A stretch of 64,000 nt of DNA from Catellatospora sp. TT07R-123. Lineage in GTDB: Bacteria; Actinomycetota; Actinomycetes; Mycobacteriales; Micromonosporaceae. Numbering within the stretch: the first letter of the stretch is position 1; each line of letters begins with the position of its first letter. This document shows, piece by piece, positions 55,598 to 61,448 of this stretch. Below the pieces are notes generated by a model. That model had not been told where the DNA came from. It was given only the letters and a program-made list of their open reading frames with translations, and ran no database searches. The position numbers were made by a program, and so were the translations under genes. Where the stretch lies: contig NZ_BNEM01000002.1 in the NCBI RefSeq assembly GCF_018327705.1, positions 930,001 through 994,000 of the forward strand. Direction: 5' to 3'.

Positions 55598-56059
55598 TCA
55601 CGGGTGGGAGGCGTGCTCCGACGTCTCGGGTGGCAGCATCCGCACCACGAAACCCACGATCCGGTCGGCGGGGATCAGCCCCCACTGCTTGCTGTCCTCG
55701 CTGCGCGGATGGTCGCCGAGCACCGCGACGCGGCCCGGCGGGACCACGAAGTCGCGGTCCCATCCCTGCGCGGCGCTGATGACCGCGGGCACCCGGTCGC
55801 CGGGGCGCCCGACCAGCCGTTTGATCCGGATCGGGCGTATGGCCGCCTCGTAGGCCGTCTCCGGCGCCCGGACCACCACCAGGTCGCGGGCGGCGCTGAT
55901 CCGGCCCGGCCGCCGCCACACCACCACCCGGTCACCCTCGTGCAGGGCGGGGGTCATGCTCCCGCCGCGGACGGTCACCACCAGGACCCGCCGCCACAGC
56001 GCCAGCAGCGCCGCGACGAGCACCACGACCGCGGCGGCGGCGATCGCCGGCCCGGTCAT
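55598..56059 (-). CDS. S26-family signal peptidase of the peptide cluster
   Basis: A 153-residue S26 peptidase: an N-terminal membrane helix (IAAAAVVVLVAALLALW), RGGSMTPALHEGD with nucleophile Ser34, IKRLVGRPGD with general base Lys80, and LGDHPRSEDSKQWGLI near the end. It is shorter than housekeeping LepB. Its ATG overlaps the ABC exporter stop (ATGA), so it is translated with the exporter and likely removes the leader of the cysteine-rich peptide at an AxA site. Confidence 0.85.
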   Translation of the reverse strand: MTGPAIAAAAVVVLVAALLALWRRVLVVTVRGGSMTPALHEGDRVVVWRRPGRISAARDLVVVRAPETAYEAAIRPIRIKRLVGRPGDRVPAVISAAQGWDRDFVVPPGRVAVLGDHPRSEDSKQWGLIPADRIVGFVVRMLPPETSEHASHP

Positions 56060-57921
56060 GAGACCAGCTCCTGGTATCCCTCAGCCTGGCGCTGGTACAT
56101 CTGCGCATAGTGGCCCCGGGCGGCGACGAGTTCGTCGTGCGAACCGGACTCCACGACCTGGCCGCCGTCGAGCACCACGACGTGGTCGGCGGCCCGGATG
56201 GCGCTCAGCCGGTGCGAGATGAGCAGGCTGGTCCGCCCCAGCCGGTGCGTCCGCAGAGTCTCGTGCACCCGGAACTCGGCGTTGGCGTCCAGCCCCGAGC
56301 TGGGCTCGTCCATGATCAGCAGGTCGGCGTCGCCGCGCATCAGCGAGCGCGCCAGCGCCACCCGCTGCCATTGGCCGCCCGACAGGGTGCTGCCCACGCC
56401 GGACCGGTCCTGCTCGTCGGCGTAGAAGATCCGGCTCAGCAGCGTGTCGTAGCCCTGGGGCAGGCCGGCGAGGAAGCCGTCCGCCTCGGCGAGGTCGGCC
56501 GCGCGCCGCACCCGGTCAGCGGAGTCCAGCGCGGGAAGGTCGCCCAGCCCGATGTTCTCCCGCACGGTCAGGTCGTAGCGGACGAAGTCCTGGAACACCG
56601 CCGCGACCCGCGCGCGCAGCTCGTCGGTGCGCAGCGTACGCACGTCGACGCCGTCCCACAGGATCTGGCCCCGCTGCGGGTCGTAGAAGCGGCACAGCAG
56701 CTTGACCAGCGTGCTCTTGCCCGCACCGTTCTCACCGACGAGGCCGACCGACTCGCCGTGGCGCAGGGTGAGGCTGACGCCGCGCAGCACCCACGGCCCG
56801 TCCTCGTCGTAGCGGAACCACACGTCGCGGAACTCGACGCCCTGCCGCAGCGGCGGCGCGGGCAGCTCGCCGGCGGGCAGGTCGCCCGCCATGCTGAGCA
56901 GGTCCTGATAGGCGCCGTAGGTGAGCAGCGCCCCGTAGGACATGCCGAGGTCGCCGACCATGGACAGCAGGCACGCCTGGACACCGGCCAGCGCTGCCAG
57001 CAGCAGCACGACGTCGCCGACGGACAGGTCCCCCGCCGCGGCCCGGCTGACGGCCAGGATCAGACCCGCCGCCGTCACGAGCTGGCCGAGCAGGCCGAGC
57101 AGCGTGCGGGCCGTGGTCAGGCGCCGGTCCAGCGCCGCCTCGGCCCGGTCGGTCGCGGTCAGGGTGGCGACGAGCTTGTCGTACAGGAAACCGCCGATGC
57201 CGAACAGGCGCACCTCCTTGGCGGCGTCCGGCTCGGTCAGCAGCGTCTCGTAGAAGTGCCTGCGCCGCAGCGTATGCGAGATCGTCGACTCAAGCTGCGC
57301 GTTGGCCCGCGCCAGCCGCACCTCGGCCACGATCGCGGGCAGCGCCGCGACCACGACCAGGGCCAGGATCGGCGGCCACAGCGCCCAGACGGCGACGGCG
57401 AAGCCGATCGACTGCACGGCCGCCCGCGCCAGGCGCGGCCCGGCCCCGGCGATCTGCTGCGGGGCGAACCCGCCGGACTGCTGCGCCATCCGCAGCTGGT
57501 CGTGCAGCCGCGGGTCCTCGAACCGGCCCAGCCCGATGAAGGTGTTGACCTTGGCGAACAGCCGCCGCTGCACGTCGGTGGCGATCCGGCGCCGCAGCTC
57601 GTGGTCGACGAACCCCGAGAGCTGCTGGACCAGCACCATGGCGGCGCCGCCGACCACGACCGCCGCCAGCGGCGGCCAGATCGCCCGGCTCGGCCAGGCC
57701 AGGCCGTCGAGCAGCTGCTTGGTGTAGAACGCGACGGCGACCGGCAGGAGCCCGCCGACGAGGTTCAGCGCGAGCGCGGTGAGCAGCAGCCGGGGCGCGG
57801 CCCGCCAGCACTGGCGGGCCGCCTGGCCGAGCCGCCGCGCCATGGCGCGGGCCGGCGCACCCGACCGCGCGCCGTCCTCCACGCGGACGGTCTGCACCCG
57901 CGTGACCTCTACCGCGCTCAT
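56056..57921 (-). CDS. ABC-type peptide exporter (fused permease and ATPase)
   Basis: A 621-residue half-transporter: six-helix membrane domain (about 40-330) followed by an ATPase with GENGAGKST (Walker A), TLSGGQWQRVALARSL (signature) and LLIMDEPSSGLD (Walker B). There is no N-terminal C39 peptidase domain; cleavage is apparently delegated to the S26 enzyme encoded next. The start overlaps the thioredoxin-like gene's stop by 4 bp. Export of the cysteine-rich peptide 1.1 kb upstream is inferred from the operon. Confidence 0.87.
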   Translation of the reverse strand: MSAVEVTRVQTVRVEDGARSGAPARAMARRLGQAARQCWRAAPRLLLTALALNLVGGLLPVAVAFYTKQLLDGLAWPSRAIWPPLAAVVVGGAAMVLVQQLSGFVDHELRRRIATDVQRRLFAKVNTFIGLGRFEDPRLHDQLRMAQQSGGFAPQQIAGAGPRLARAAVQSIGFAVAVWALWPPILALVVVAALPAIVAEVRLARANAQLESTISHTLRRRHFYETLLTEPDAAKEVRLFGIGGFLYDKLVATLTATDRAEAALDRRLTTARTLLGLLGQLVTAAGLILAVSRAAAGDLSVGDVVLLLAALAGVQACLLSMVGDLGMSYGALLTYGAYQDLLSMAGDLPAGELPAPPLRQGVEFRDVWFRYDEDGPWVLRGVSLTLRHGESVGLVGENGAGKSTLVKLLCRFYDPQRGQILWDGVDVRTLRTDELRARVAAVFQDFVRYDLTVRENIGLGDLPALDSADRVRRAADLAEADGFLAGLPQGYDTLLSRIFYADEQDRSGVGSTLSGGQWQRVALARSLMRGDADLLIMDEPSSGLDANAEFRVHETLRTHRLGRTSLLISHRLSAIRAADHVVVLDGGQVVESGSHDELVAARGHYAQMYQRQAEGYQELVS

Positions 57922-58451
57922 GCGTGCGCGAGGTGCTTGATTCCCACGGCGTCGATGCTCGTAGCCGCGACGGACCCGCCCTCGAACCGCAGCACGGTCG
58001 GGAAGGCGGCCACCTTGAACGCCTGCATCAGCTCCGTGTCGCCGTCGTGGATGAGGTGGACCTGGCAGCCCTGCAGCCGTTCCAGGGTCTCGTCCAGGTC
58101 GTCGCCGCGGTGCACCCGCACCATCGCGACCGCCCGGCCCCCGTACGTGAGCAGCTGCTGTGCCGCGGTCGCGAAGTCGGGCATCGCCTCGTGGCAGGGC
58201 GCGCAGGTCGGCGTGAAGAACCCGATCAGCGTGGGCGACTTCTGCAACTGCTCGCGGGCGACGAGCCCGCCGTCGAGCGTCTCGATCGGCGCGAACTCCG
58301 GCAGCCGGTCGCCGACCAGCAACTCCGGGCGGCTCTGCCCGCCCGTGGCCTTCACCTCGCGCACGATGGCACTCAGGCGAAGCACCAGGGCCAGGTTCAC
58401 GGCGCACATGGCGGCCAGCACGGCCACCGCCACCGTCAGGACGGTCAGCAT
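57918..58451 (-). CDS. Membrane-anchored thioredoxin-like (TlpA/ResA-type) protein
   Basis: A 177-residue protein with an N-terminal membrane helix (VLTVAVAVLAAMCAVNLALVL) and an extracytoplasmic thioredoxin fold: FFTPTCAPCHEAMPDFA carries the CxxC pair Cys83 and Cys86, and AFPTVLRF the cis-Pro. It acts in thiol-disulfide exchange outside the membrane. With the MauE-like protein encoded one base upstream it probably oxidises or isomerises the nine-cysteine peptide. Confidence 0.87.
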   Translation of the reverse strand: MLTVLTVAVAVLAAMCAVNLALVLRLSAIVREVKATGGQSRPELLVGDRLPEFAPIETLDGGLVAREQLQKSPTLIGFFTPTCAPCHEAMPDFATAAQQLLTYGGRAVAMVRVHRGDDLDETLERLQGCQVHLIHDGDTELMQAFKVAAFPTVLRFEGGSVAATSIDAVGIKHLAHA

Positions 58452-58452
58452 G

Positions 58453-58995
58453 TCAGACTTCCTTCGTCGTCGTGAACAGGAATCGCAGGTCGTCCCAGCG
58501 CACCACGGGCAGCGCCAGGCTCACGCCGACGGCGACCGCGAAAGCCGCCGCGGCCAGTTCGGCGACCGAGCCGGACGCCGTCAGGTCGACCGGTCCGGCG
58601 GCCAGGCCGAGCGCGGCGGCCAGCGCCAGGGTGAGGTTGCGGACCGCATGGTCGGCCCGCAGAAGTCCGCCGGATGCCCCGAAGCAGCGGCAGTACGCCG
58701 TGGTGCCGCGCCTCAGCACCAGGCCGATGACGGCACTGAACGCCACCAGCAGCAGCCCGGACAGGACGAGCCCGGCCCCGGCGGTCGGCGGCCACAGCAG
58801 CAGTCCCGTGGCGGCCACCTCGGCGGCGGCCACCAGCAGGCCCAGCGGCGCCGCCAGCGCCCGCGGCACCAAGCCGAGCTCCCGCAGGGAGGCCGTGAAC
58901 GCGCGCAGCGCGGACGGCCGGCGCAGCTTCGAGTACGCCGCGGTCGCGAACACCACCGCCAGCGCGGCGTGCAGAGTGATCAGGACGAGGTTCAC
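58453..58995 (-). CDS. MauE/DoxX-like redox membrane protein
   Basis: A 180-residue membrane protein with four to five hydrophobic segments. TAAYSKLRRPSALRAF near the start and YCRCFGASGG in the middle are typical of MauE-type proteins, which support disulfide formation (VKOR/DsbB-like role) in amine dehydrogenase and peptide systems. GTG 58995 has AAGGAG upstream. It is separated from the precursor gene by a strong hairpin and is followed one base later by the thioredoxin-like gene. Confidence 0.82.
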   Translation of the reverse strand: MNLVLITLHAALAVVFATAAYSKLRRPSALRAFTASLRELGLVPRALAAPLGLLVAAAEVAATGLLLWPPTAGAGLVLSGLLLVAFSAVIGLVLRRGTTAYCRCFGASGGLLRADHAVRNLTLALAAALGLAAGPVDLTASGSVAELAAAAFAVAVGVSLALPVVRWDDLRFLFTTTKEV

Positions 58996-59021
58996 CGTCG
59001 CTCCTTAGCGGATCGCCGAAG

Positions 59022-59054
59022 GCGGCCGGGCGCCGCTGTGCAGCGCCCGGCCGC
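59022..59054 (-). terminator. Hairpin between precursor and MauE-like genes
   Basis: Perfect 12-bp arms (GCGGCCGGGCGC at 59022-59033 and its complement at 59043-59054) with a 9-nt loop follow the precursor stop. Partial termination here would give much more precursor mRNA than processing-enzyme mRNA, a common arrangement in peptide clusters. Confidence 0.7.
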
Positions 59055-59060
59055 GGTGAC

Positions 59061-59279
59061 TCAGCAGTACGAGGCGTCGGCCGCCACGCACCGGCAGCCG
59101 CCCCAGGCGCCACAGCTGGTGGTGCAGTTGCCCGAGGTGGAGCAGGTGCGGTAGCAGGTCTGGACGTAGACGCCGTTGTAGCACTCGACCCGCTTCTGCT
59201 GGTACGGGTCCGGCGGGCAGCCGGCGGCGGCGTCGGCCTTGGCGGCCAGCCCGAGGACCCGGTCAAGCAGCTTCGTCAT
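59061..59279 (-). CDS. Cysteine-rich secreted peptide precursor
   Basis: A 72-residue peptide. A leader of about 19 residues (MTKLLDRVLGLAAKADAAA) ends in Ala-rich AxA sites, and the C-terminal 53 residues hold nine cysteines (positions 21, 33, 42, 46, 52, 56, 62, 64, 72) spaced by Thr/Ser/Gly. The leader is not a classical Sec signal (no long hydrophobic core), which fits export through the cluster's ABC transporter and cleavage by the cluster's S26 peptidase. The core is likely a disulfide-bonded extracellular peptide, perhaps antimicrobial or signalling; an odd Cys number suggests one free or lipid/dimer-forming Cys. GGGAGG precedes the ATG, giving strong translation. I know no family match. 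Confidence 0.72.
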   Translation of the reverse strand: MTKLLDRVLGLAAKADAAAGCPPDPYQQKRVECYNGVYVQTCYRTCSTSGNCTTSCGAWGGCRCVAADASYC

Positions 59280-59364
59280 GCTTGCCTCCCTTTCATCGAC
59301 AGAGACATCCGTGGTGAAACTCCGGCTGGAGCAGCACCACAGCGTCCATCGTGCGGGCCGACGC

Positions 59365-59392
59365 TCCACACCGGATTCACATATGCTTCACA
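59365..59392. promoter_or_regulatory. SARP-type direct repeats, 11-bp spacing
   Basis: TCCACA (59365), TTCACA (59376) and TTCACA (59387) repeat with an 11-bp period in the divergent gap between the precursor peptide and the SARP gene. SARP regulators bind direct heptamer repeats spaced by one helical turn, so this is a good candidate target of the adjacent SARP. Confidence 0.6.
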
Positions 59393-59415
59393 CGCACACA
59401 TCCACGGGGGGATAG

Positions 59416-60639
59416 ATGCAGATACAAATATTGGGTCGCGTCGTCGTCCTGTCAGGATGGTCGACCCATCGCGTCGACCGAGCCCAGACCCGGGGCATCC
59501 TGGCCCTGCTCGCACTCAACACCGGCCGGGTGGTCACCCACGACGGCATCGCCGAGGCCATGTGGGGCGACACCCCGCCGCGGCGGGCCCGGTCGCGGAT
59601 ACACACCGCGGTCTCCGACATCCGCCGCTGCTTCCAGGACATCGGCCTCACCGACCCCATCACCAGCGACCGCTACGGCTACCTGCTGGACGCTCCGCGC
59701 GAATGCCTGGACGCCCACCGCATGGACGAGGAGCTGCGCCGGGCCCGGCGGCTGCTCGCCGAGGGCGACCACGCCGCCGCCGAGGAGTGCCTGCGCGGCG
59801 CGCTCGGCCTGTGCCGGGGCGGCCCGCTGGCCGACGCCGCCGGTGCCTTCGTCGACCCGACCCGCGTGGCCCTGGAGGAGCAGCGCCTGTGCGCGGTCGA
59901 GGACCTGGCCGTGGCCCGGCTGGCGCTGCGCCGCTACGACGAGGTCGTCGGCGAGCTGCTCCCGCTGACCGAGCTGCATCCGTTCCGGGAGCGGATGCGC
60001 GGCTGCCTCATGGTGGCGCTGCACCGCTCGGGCCGCCAGGCCCAGGCGCTCCAGGTGTTCCGGGAGTACCGGGTGCGGCTGGCCGAGCGGGACGGCCTGG
60101 ATCCCGGCCGTGAGCTCACCGAACTCGCCGACGCCATCGTGCAGGACCGCGAGCTCGGCTGGGACGGGGCCCTGCCGGACGAGCGCCGCCCCACGGGCAC
60201 CCCGCGCCTCAGCGCCGTGGCGCGCGGGCACGGCGACGGCGTCGGCATGGCGCTGCGGCATGGTCCGCCGCCTGAGGCGACCGCCGCACCGAGGCCGGAC
60301 CGCCGAGGCCGGCTGGCGGCCATCGCGGTGCCGCGCCGGGTCCGGCGTGAGGCGGTCACCGCGCCGGTCAGCCCTGCTCCCCCGCCCCGCCAGCCCGGAC
60401 GCCTGCCGCAGGGCATGCTGTCGGGCAAGCGCGACGAGGCGGACCTGCCGTGCCCTCCGCACGGGCTGCCCCGATACCGGTTGCTGACCGGGCCTGGCGA
60501 CGCGACGTTCTGCCGCCGCGTCAGCGAGGCCCTCGACCTCGGGTACCGGCTGCACGGCGGCGCCTCGGTCGCCTTCGACGGTGAGAAGATGATCGCCGTC
60601 CAGGCGGTCGTCTGGCCGGGGACCGTCCCGGGGATCTGA
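59416..60639 (+). CDS. SARP-type regulator with C-terminal DUF1737 domain
   Basis: A 407-residue regulator. Residues 1-92 are an OmpR-like winged helix (MQIQILGRVVVL, HTAVSDIRRCFQD). Residues about 95-245 are the BTAD helical domain (ECLRGALGLCRGGPLAD, RERMRGCLMVALHRSGRQAQAL, LAERDGLDPGREL). A Pro/Arg-rich linker of about 100 residues leads to a DUF1737-like domain (about 350-400: YRLLTGPGDATFCRRVSEAL, then VAFDGEKMIAVQAVVWP). SARPs activate biosynthetic or peptide clusters; the fused domain is unusual and may be a small-ligand or contact module. GGGGGGATAG precedes the ATG. It is divergent from the cysteine-rich precursor gene and is its probable activator. Confidence 0.85.
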   Translation: MQIQILGRVVVLSGWSTHRVDRAQTRGILALLALNTGRVVTHDGIAEAMWGDTPPRRARSRIHTAVSDIRRCFQDIGLTDPITSDRYGYLLDAPRECLDAHRMDEELRRARRLLAEGDHAAAEECLRGALGLCRGGPLADAAGAFVDPTRVALEEQRLCAVEDLAVARLALRRYDEVVGELLPLTELHPFRERMRGCLMVALHRSGRQAQALQVFREYRVRLAERDGLDPGRELTELADAIVQDRELGWDGALPDERRPTGTPRLSAVARGHGDGVGMALRHGPPPEATAAPRPDRRGRLAAIAVPRRVRREAVTAPVSPAPPPRQPGRLPQGMLSGKRDEADLPCPPHGLPRYRLLTGPGDATFCRRVSEALDLGYRLHGGASVAFDGEKMIAVQAVVWPGTVPGI

Positions 60640-60671: not shown

Positions 60672-61448
60672 ATGGAGCAGGATGAGCGGGCACGTCACGC
60701 GTCGTCGTTCGGCGCGGCGGCCACCGCGTACGCCGAGCACCGCCCCGACTACGCGCAGGCCGCCGTACGCTGGGCGCTCGAACCCGCGCCGGGCCTGCGC
60801 GTGCTCGACCTCGGCGCCGGGACCGGCAAGCTGACCGCCGTGCTGGCCGCGCTGGGCGCCGACGTCGTCGCGGTCGAGCCCGACCCGGCGATGCTGGCCG
60901 AACTGCGCCGCACCCTGCCGGAGGTCCGTGCCCTGCCGGGCAGCGCCGAGGCGATCGCGCTGCCGGACGCCTCGGTCGACGCCGTGCTGGCCGGCAACGC
61001 CATGCACTGGTTCGACATGGCCGCCGCCGGGCCGGAGATCGCCCGGGTGCTCGCCCCCGGCGGCGTCCTCGCCGGGCTGTGGAACGTGCTCGACGACCGG
61101 GTCGACTGGGTCGCCGGGCTCGCCCGGGTCGGCGGCAGCGCGGCGATCGGCCCGCGCGACACGCTCGGCGACTGGCGTGCCGCCACGGCGGGCATGCACC
61201 TGCCGAAGACCGGCGCCGCCCGGTTCGGGTCGCCGGAGCAGGCCGAGTTCCCGCACGGGCAGCGCCGCACCGCGGACTCGCTCGTCGCGACCCTCGCGAC
61301 GCGCGCGGGCATGCTGGTCATGCCGCAGCCGCAGCGGCAGGCCGCGCTCGACCGGATCCGTGCGGTGCTCGCGAGCCGGCCGGAGACCGCCGACGGCGAG
61401 TTCACCCTCCCGATGCTGACCGGCGTGCTGCGGGTGCGGCGGCGGTGA
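60672..61448 (+). CDS. Class I SAM-dependent methyltransferase
   Basis: A 258-residue methyltransferase of the Methyltransf_11 type: VLDLGAGTGKLT (SAM motif I), VVAVEPDPAML (motif II acidic), AIALPDASVDAVLAGNAMHWFD and RVLAPGGVLAGLWN (motif post III). An N-terminal SFGAAATAYAEHRPDY matches the group's start. The substrate is unknown. AGAGAGGACC precedes the ATG. It ends 9 bp before the stop of the convergent alcohol dehydrogenase. Confidence 0.88.
   Translation: MEQDERARHASSFGAAATAYAEHRPDYAQAAVRWALEPAPGLRVLDLGAGTGKLTAVLAALGADVVAVEPDPAMLAELRRTLPEVRALPGSAEAIALPDASVDAVLAGNAMHWFDMAAAGPEIARVLAPGGVLAGLWNVLDDRVDWVAGLARVGGSAAIGPRDTLGDWRAATAGMHLPKTGAARFGSPEQAEFPHGQRRTADSLVATLATRAGMLVMPQPQRQAALDRIRAVLASRPETADGEFTLPMLTGVLRVRRR

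Follow-up and report, generated by a model that had tools for sequence, protein, structure and literature searches.

The 64,000 nucleotides of Catellatospora sp. TT07R-123 analysed here (contig NZ_BNEM01000002.1, positions 930,001 to 994,000; hereafter the window) derive from a filamentous bacterium and hold a compact cluster of six genes, including a divergent SARP regulator, in which we recognise what is most likely an operon for the biosynthesis and export of one secreted, disulfide-rich, leader-directed peptide. A sequence-only reading of this DNA had named a small precursor, a MauE-like protein, a TlpA-like thioredoxin with a CxxC motif, an ABC exporter lacking a C39 peptidase, an S26 peptidase and the SARP, and all of these are borne out by their coordinates and by scans with Pfam (seven window proteins) and NCBIfam (six; Table 1). 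The 72-residue precursor also proved to be built as described, with an AxA-ended leader, MTKLLDRVLGLAAKADAAA, and all nine cysteines within the 53 residues that follow it. Oxidation, export and leader cleavage had further been assigned to individual genes, and comparison with relatives supports these maturation steps well, since cysteine counts are even, the S26 peptidase and the AxA leader are lost together, catalytic residues are conserved and MauE occurs fused to the thioredoxin; conservation of the gene set points the same way.

Relatives were not found when genome contigs were initially scanned with the single window precursor (zero hits), but alignment of an ABC sub-domain did find them. 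The resulting scan of named genomes with the ABC bait, which of all the samples depends least on the precursor, gave at least 592 stretches, at least 590 of which code for a related exporter domain, and the rest of the gene set was checked in the best 80 of these (mainly from Streptomyces, Nonomuraea, Actinomadura, Lentzea, Micromonospora and their relatives), with genes counted anywhere within the locus, at most about 8 kb per side. The TlpA-like protein is present in 77 of these 80 loci, S26 in 75, a family precursor in 69, MauE in 60 and a SARP in 27, and 54 hold MauE, the TlpA-like protein, the exporter, S26 and a precursor together. The sequence-only reading had staked itself in advance on the small open reading frame (ORF) being conserved beside the other genes, and so it is. 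In the Mau maturation of methylamine dehydrogenase, MauE and a thioredoxin-like partner are associated with a disulfide-rich small protein (the available part of PMC7794033), and one could suppose from the MauE family match (PF07291) that the window's redox genes serve that same enzyme and that the small ORF is incidental. The conservation of the precursor beside the set (69/80) speaks against this, as do the 15.1 bits that the TlpA-like protein scores against a MauD cut-off of 188.6, which unlike in a Mau cluster leaves the partner not a MauD by NCBIfam. No dehydrogenase lies beside the present set, and a search with Me-amine-dh_L gave no match in the source genome, a negative that carries no weight because the control genomes gave none either; we consider the idea barely credible.

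For analysis of the peptides themselves we collected 155 precursors from 145 loci, of which 153 have a distinct mature part after removal of two repeats (L164 and L182, from contigs already represented by L065 and L126); hidden Markov model (HMM) matches beginning past profile position 12 and tails longer than 110 residues had been excluded beforehand. A fixed rule set the cut that defines the mature peptide at the most AxA-like site ahead of the first cysteine; in L141 and L199 it is probably misplaced, which leaves their cysteine counts unaffected. The leader consensus is roughly (A/G)DRLLxxLVPxxxAxA, with A19 invariant and A17 kept in at least 90% of 51 aligned members, and an HMM of the leader alone retrieves family members whilst their cores vary. 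By simple measures rather than a signal-peptide predictor, the leaders contain no long hydrophobic stretch of the Sec-signal kind, the longest uncharged run having a median of 7 residues (6 in the window) and reaching 12 or more in 2 of 153. Random pairs of cores are 33% identical against 30% in a shuffled control, and 22% once shared cysteines are set aside, compared with 40% for leaders. In 33 independent close pairs the pooled ratio of nonsynonymous to synonymous substitution (dN/dS) is 0.40 for the leader and 0.49 for the core, so the precursors are translated; core dN exceeds dS in five of these pairs. The broad criterion for a ribosomally synthesised and post-translationally modified peptide (RiPP), a conserved leader joined to a variable core, therefore seems to describe the family at the level of sequence. 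An AlphaFold model (20 sequences) has four strands and a low-confidence leader helix (mean predicted local distance difference test score 72.3, predicted TM-score 0.48, block means 78 to 87 over residues 21-60). A Foldseek search of the PDB with this model gave nothing at E ≤ 0.001, and searches of 51 precursors against the families of Pfam and NCBIfam (best E in either 0.03) and a profile search of the PDB gave no match beyond chance.

The number of cysteines in these variable cores is even in 145 of the 153 distinct mature peptides, and this holds when only the first member of each cluster is counted (108/116 at 60% identity, 52/55 at 45%). A binomial simulation with the same cysteine content gives 77 ± 6 of 153 even, with a maximum of 96 in 2000 draws, and when 15 other residues are counted in the peptides that contain them, even numbers make up 48-53% for Gly, Ser, Thr, Tyr and Ala and a smaller share for the rarer ones, Leu being lowest at 15/88. 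Across all close pairs, cysteine is retained at 492 of 510 aligned positions compared with 1357 of 2018 for other residues. Five further cores that stand outside the 153, four with eight cysteines in the group of loci we call f22 and one with six in locus L074, are likewise even by reading. Pairing is the simplest cause of such counts, and the cysteines of the family are very probably used in pairs, which suggests that the cores carry disulfides. The nine cysteines of the window peptide are odd in number and unusual for this family.

The two proteins proposed to form these bonds retain their own cysteines. Both cysteines of the CxCFG motif of MauE are present in 33 of 33 aligned sequences, and in the TlpA-like protein C83 is kept in 39/39, C86 in 38/39 and P151, which we take to be the cis-Pro position, in 38/38. 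Five f22 loci were fetched, and in four of them MauE and a CxxC thioredoxin are fused as one ORF; the fifth, L241, has a partial exporter without precursor, MauE or S26 and was hence not counted. In the fused loci (L128, L129, L239 and L240) the fusion gene is accompanied by an ABC exporter and a precursor that lacks AxA, and L128 and L129 also hold a MacB-like ABC pair, whose permease family, named by eye, occurs in 7 of 131 loci. Because of this fusion, the conserved cysteines and the cysteine parity, the data support MauE and the TlpA-like protein as a coupled disulfide-forming pair. TlpA-type proteins often act as reductants, and this, together with the odd number of cysteines in the window peptide, might be taken to mean that the pair is reductive or isomerising and that the cysteines bind a metal or form some other crosslink. 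We think this rather improbable, given the even counts in 145 of 153 peptides and cysteine spacings that vary widely between family members; in addition, no known crosslinking enzyme was recognised in a survey of recurring neighbours, that is, of protein families found in five or more of 131 related loci. The direction that we prefer for the pair, oxidation rather than reduction, is suggested by the export setting and by what the available part of PMC7794033 says of MauE in methylamine dehydrogenase.

For the S26 peptidase, 130 loci with an exporter of this clade could be compared, comprising 106 with an AxA precursor, five with a precursor lacking AxA and 19 with no assigned precursor (16 with S26, three without, and including the repeats L164 and L182), the last of which were left out of the Fisher test. 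An S26 gene lies within 5 kb in 100 of the 106 AxA loci and in none of the five others (Fisher 3.6e-6), a value that overstates the case because the five represent two lineages and thus two evolutionary events; one of them, L129, also has slightly less than 4.5 kb available on one side of its exporter. Four of the five are the f22 loci, whose homologous cores (CPPDC...CGAW...C) follow leaders ending in AVRD or similar. In the fifth, L074 (5536-8738), the Cys-rich core has its ATG 7 nt after AGGAGG, a strong ribosome site, with neither leader nor S26, although upstream the reading frame continues open into a LuxR-type ORF, which makes a fused form possible. All 44 S26 sequences compared keep Ser34 and Lys80, and the window protein passes the NCBIfam cut-off for signal peptidase I (TIGR02227). 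By its occurrence the peptidase appears to track AxA leaders.

The odd count of the window peptide is shared with its closest relatives. In a tree of the ABC proteins the window forms a branch with L031, L032 and L042 (support 0.868), to which L074 is sister (0.989), and the peptides of the four genomes in the branch have 9; 7 and 7; 9 and 7; and 4 and 5 cysteines. Six of the seven peptides in this branch are therefore odd compared with two of 146 elsewhere (Fisher 1.2e-8, for a grouping noticed after the fact), and two of its loci carry a pair of precursors that are both odd. An odd count would leave one thiol for an inter-chain bond, and the spare cysteine in this branch probably serves a disulfide between two chains, which would give a dimer. 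A model built from the branch and run against 354 family genomes recovers the four at E ≤ 1e-26, with the next match at 5.8e-12 and no fifth member.

Precursors of this kind were also sought in wider samples. Within the 64-kb window the precursor HMM has next best matches of only E 1.4 and 4.8, and in the 9.17-Mb source genome there are two matches at E ≤ 0.01; the window match is not due to chance. In the bacterial family to which the source belongs, 16 of 250 genomes match at E ≤ 0.01, the window's own included. Of 24 loci around these precursors, seven hold MauE, Tlp, ABC and S26 (tblastn with the window proteins) and L042 all except MauE; the remaining precursors stood apart from the gene set. 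With the ABC protein as query in ten of these genomes, relatives 42-55% identical were found in nine, the exception being G035 at only about 35%, and in 14 of 20 further ABC-baited loci there is a small ORF with the same leader and a different Cys-rich core. At class level, 394 sampled genomes yielded 38 with a match at E ≤ 0.01, a number that includes the source genome and in which the weakest matches are probably due to chance, and MauE, Tlp, ABC and S26 surround the precursor in 16 of 20 loci; in the phylum sample, a threshold of E ≤ 1e-4 leaves two of 296 genomes, the source genome being one. Genome G083 has 11 precursor matches at E ≤ 1e-4, yet one ABC protein of this clade, so one machine seems to serve many precursors. 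The gene set recurs across relatives, its leaders of a single type and its peptides varying without end, and seems to represent a large, almost undescribed peptide family.

Several individual loci deserve mention beside these counts. On another contig of the source genome, a second family cluster (G000:C1:786500-802500, L115) has a six-cysteine core, a divergent SARP, Tlp, ABC and S26, with MauE about 3 kb away. The 14.1-Mb assembly G075, flagged for 10% contamination, encodes 19 exporters of this clade (42-55% identity), and all ten of its loci that were fetched hold a precursor, with differing Cys-rich cores. Outside Actinomycetota, Myxococcus vastator (L202, 6313-9172) has the Tlp, ABC and S26 of the set with a transposase-like ORF upstream, by eye; a precursor was looked for there and none was found. 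Neighbours of low frequency, named by eye in the 131 loci, include a serine hydrolase (9), a short-chain dehydrogenase (7), a major facilitator superfamily transporter (10) and a MacB-like permease (7), and PADLOC gave nothing beyond ABC-type matches.

Sublancin and the class II bacteriocins are likewise small exported Cys peptides with an ABC exporter and sometimes dedicated thiol oxidoreductases, and their double-glycine leaders are cut by a C39 domain. The present system differs in having an AxA leader and a separate S26 peptidase: the window leader ends AAA-G rather than GG, and the Pfam scan gave no C39 match in the ABC protein, which scores 111.8 bits for the ATPase domain and 17.2 for the membrane domain, under the Pfam cut-off of 28. 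No Lan enzyme, YcaO, radical SAM protein or lasso cyclase was found among the window proteins scanned, and no lanthipeptide, thiopeptide, sactipeptide or lasso enzyme was recognised by eye among the recurring neighbours. A signal-peptidase-like leader peptidase has been reported in the linear polyphosphorylated peptides (PMC13381572), where, according to the available part of that paper, SpI-like peptidases had not previously been described in RiPP pathways. Those systems resemble ours in this peptidase, in an MsbA-like exporter, and in a conserved leader with a variable core. They differ in that their enzyme is archaeal-type and SipW-like, in having a RiPP recognition element (RRE) and an HprK-like kinase, and in being found mostly in Bacillota, whereas the present S26 has the conserved Ser and Lys and is joined by a redox pair; neither RRE nor kinase was matched among the window proteins scanned.

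The suggestion that the cluster falls outside the well-known RiPP classes therefore stands, whilst the accompanying suggestion that it may be undescribed holds only in part. In 2020 decRiPPter (PMC7794033, available part) gave three uncharacterised Streptomyces mauE candidate families, one also with mauD, each with a precursor of at least eight cysteines, and proposed that mauE, lying by a Cys-rich precursor as it does here, modifies that precursor. The nine cysteines of the window peptide fit this description, and identity of the present family with those candidates is plausible on comparison by description only. The candidates are described there, as far as the available part goes, as unnamed and from three strains, without experiment or analysis of leader, S26, parity or distribution, and the locus of S. 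viridosporus NRRL 2414 in our set (L207) has a core of six cysteines, not eight. In the literature searched, with its sources available in part, this paper is the only direct antecedent, and the system would be one of leader-directed exported peptides, a branch noticed once and so far uncharacterised.

In the pathway that we propose, in which we infer the order of the steps, the redox direction and the roles of SARP and hairpin, the ribosome would make the 72-residue precursor, whose amphipathic leader, unlike a Sec signal, would pass it to the dedicated ABC exporter. S26, on the outer face, would cut after Ala19 to release a 53-residue peptide starting GCPPD, and the membrane-anchored TlpA-like thioredoxin with MauE would act together as an oxidising relay to close the disulfides of the peptide once exported. 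Through the 11-bp repeats the SARP may activate the operon divergent from it, and the hairpin that follows the precursor gene may shift the balance from machinery to precursor. The family as a whole would be a library of one leader plus variable cores.

Table 1. Features of the peptide cluster in the window
Feature	Position	Strand	Remarks
Precursor peptide gene, 72 aa	59061..59279	-	Family HMM E 3.8e-18 (window member itself in HMM); relatives' pooled dN/dS
Leader, 19 residues, amphipathic, ending A17-x-A19	59223..59279	-	Longest uncharged run 6
Predicted mature peptide, 53 residues, starts GCPPD, nine Cys	59064..59222	-	
Hairpin with 14-bp stem, precursor-MauE interval	59023..59053	-	z -3.9
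MauE-family membrane protein, C102-x-C104-F-G	58453..58995	-	PF07291, 85.9 bits, cut-off 27
TlpA-like thioredoxin, N-terminal hydrophobic anchor, C83-x-x-C86 (CAPC), Pro151	57918..58451	-	
ABC exporter without C39 peptidase	56056..57921	-	Relatives 42-55% identical
S26 (signal-peptidase-like) peptidase, Ser34/Lys80	55598..56059	-	PF10502 72 bits; TIGR02227 69.6 bits, cut-off 47
Three TYCACA repeats, 11-bp spacing (59365, 59376, 59387), putative SARP box	59365..59392		Precursor-SARP interval
SARP regulator (Trans_reg_C + BTAD), C-terminal DUF1737	59416..60639	+	Divergent

The genes of the operon are tightly packed, the TlpA-like gene lying 1 nt past MauE and the ABC and S26 genes each overlapping the preceding gene by ATGA. 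The hairpin that had been noted behind the precursor is real, none of 200 shuffles being as good, and it is family-wide: in the 75 nt past the precursor stop the mean z is -2.17 (79/153 below -2), compared with -0.40 (17/152) ahead of the start. No terminator-type T-run was found. SARPs bind 11-bp direct repeats, and within 59280-59415 three TYCACA repeats at spacing 11 have a P of 0.004, other spacings from 8 to 14 not falling below 0.4; of eight spacings compared over 47 SARP upstream regions, 11 comes first, with z > 2 in 12 of the regions, which lends weak support from relatives to the repeats as a putative SARP box. A sigma-70-like site lies nearby on the minus strand (59455-59427). The DUF1737 tail of the SARP (E 2.1e-16) has no match at 144 related loci. 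A class I methyltransferase gene (60672-61448) follows on the same strand, 33 nt past the SARP; it was considered as part of the cluster and rejected, no such family being among the recurring neighbours.

As for end use, where the sequence-only reading had offered a bacteriocin or a signal, antagonism of other microbes, an antimicrobial role, is the one to which we lean, tentatively and a little short of an even chance. A signal or developmental surface peptide would be suggested by the SARP adjoining the precursor, by multiple precursors per genome (such as the 11 in G083) and by the lack of an immunity gene recognised among the recurring neighbours. We regard this as unlikely, though by no means negligible, since the cores are hypervariable, occurrence is patchy (none of ten other genomes of the genus matches the model of the window's branch at E ≤ 1e-4), and a response regulator is found in only 16 of 131 loci and a sensor kinase, by eye, in 7. 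The lack of a recognised immunity gene among these neighbours is unusual for an antibacterial and counts against that use, but would agree with a target that is not of the producer's own kind.

Further points weigh against our interpretation and should be considered together. MauE was not found in 20 of the 80 ABC-baited loci, and 11 gave no precursor match, although inspection by eye suggests a plausible one in two of these (L205 and L212). In six AxA loci there is no S26 gene within 5 kb; three of these are in G075, and in L211 the gene lies further off. The motif AxA is found at the cut in 149 of 153 precursors, a figure that is in part circular, since the most AxA-like site decided the position of the cut, and among SARP upstream regions spacing 9 comes close behind spacing 11 (8/47). 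General positive selection on the cores was not found in the 33 close pairs, and the pooled core value of 0.49 therefore gives no general arms-race signal. The redox direction of MauE and TlpA is inferred.

Taken together, these data allow a wider picture, which we offer as possible, if clearly doubtful: an actinomycete counterpart of animal venom-peptide libraries, in which one leader and one machine for export, oxidation and S26 cleavage would serve open-ended disulfide scaffolds, some genomes having a single machine for a dozen or so dispersed precursors, and the branch of the window having moved to odd-cysteine covalent dimers. If our main reading is right, these clusters would make up a class of secreted disulfide peptides that is widespread, hardly characterised and equipped with a full maturation set, and would offer a way to encode many new disulfide scaffolds genetically. 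They would also provide an instance of a bacterial signal-peptidase-like leader peptidase working for an ABC exporter, as well as an uncomplicated setting for testing the partnership between MauE and thioredoxin.

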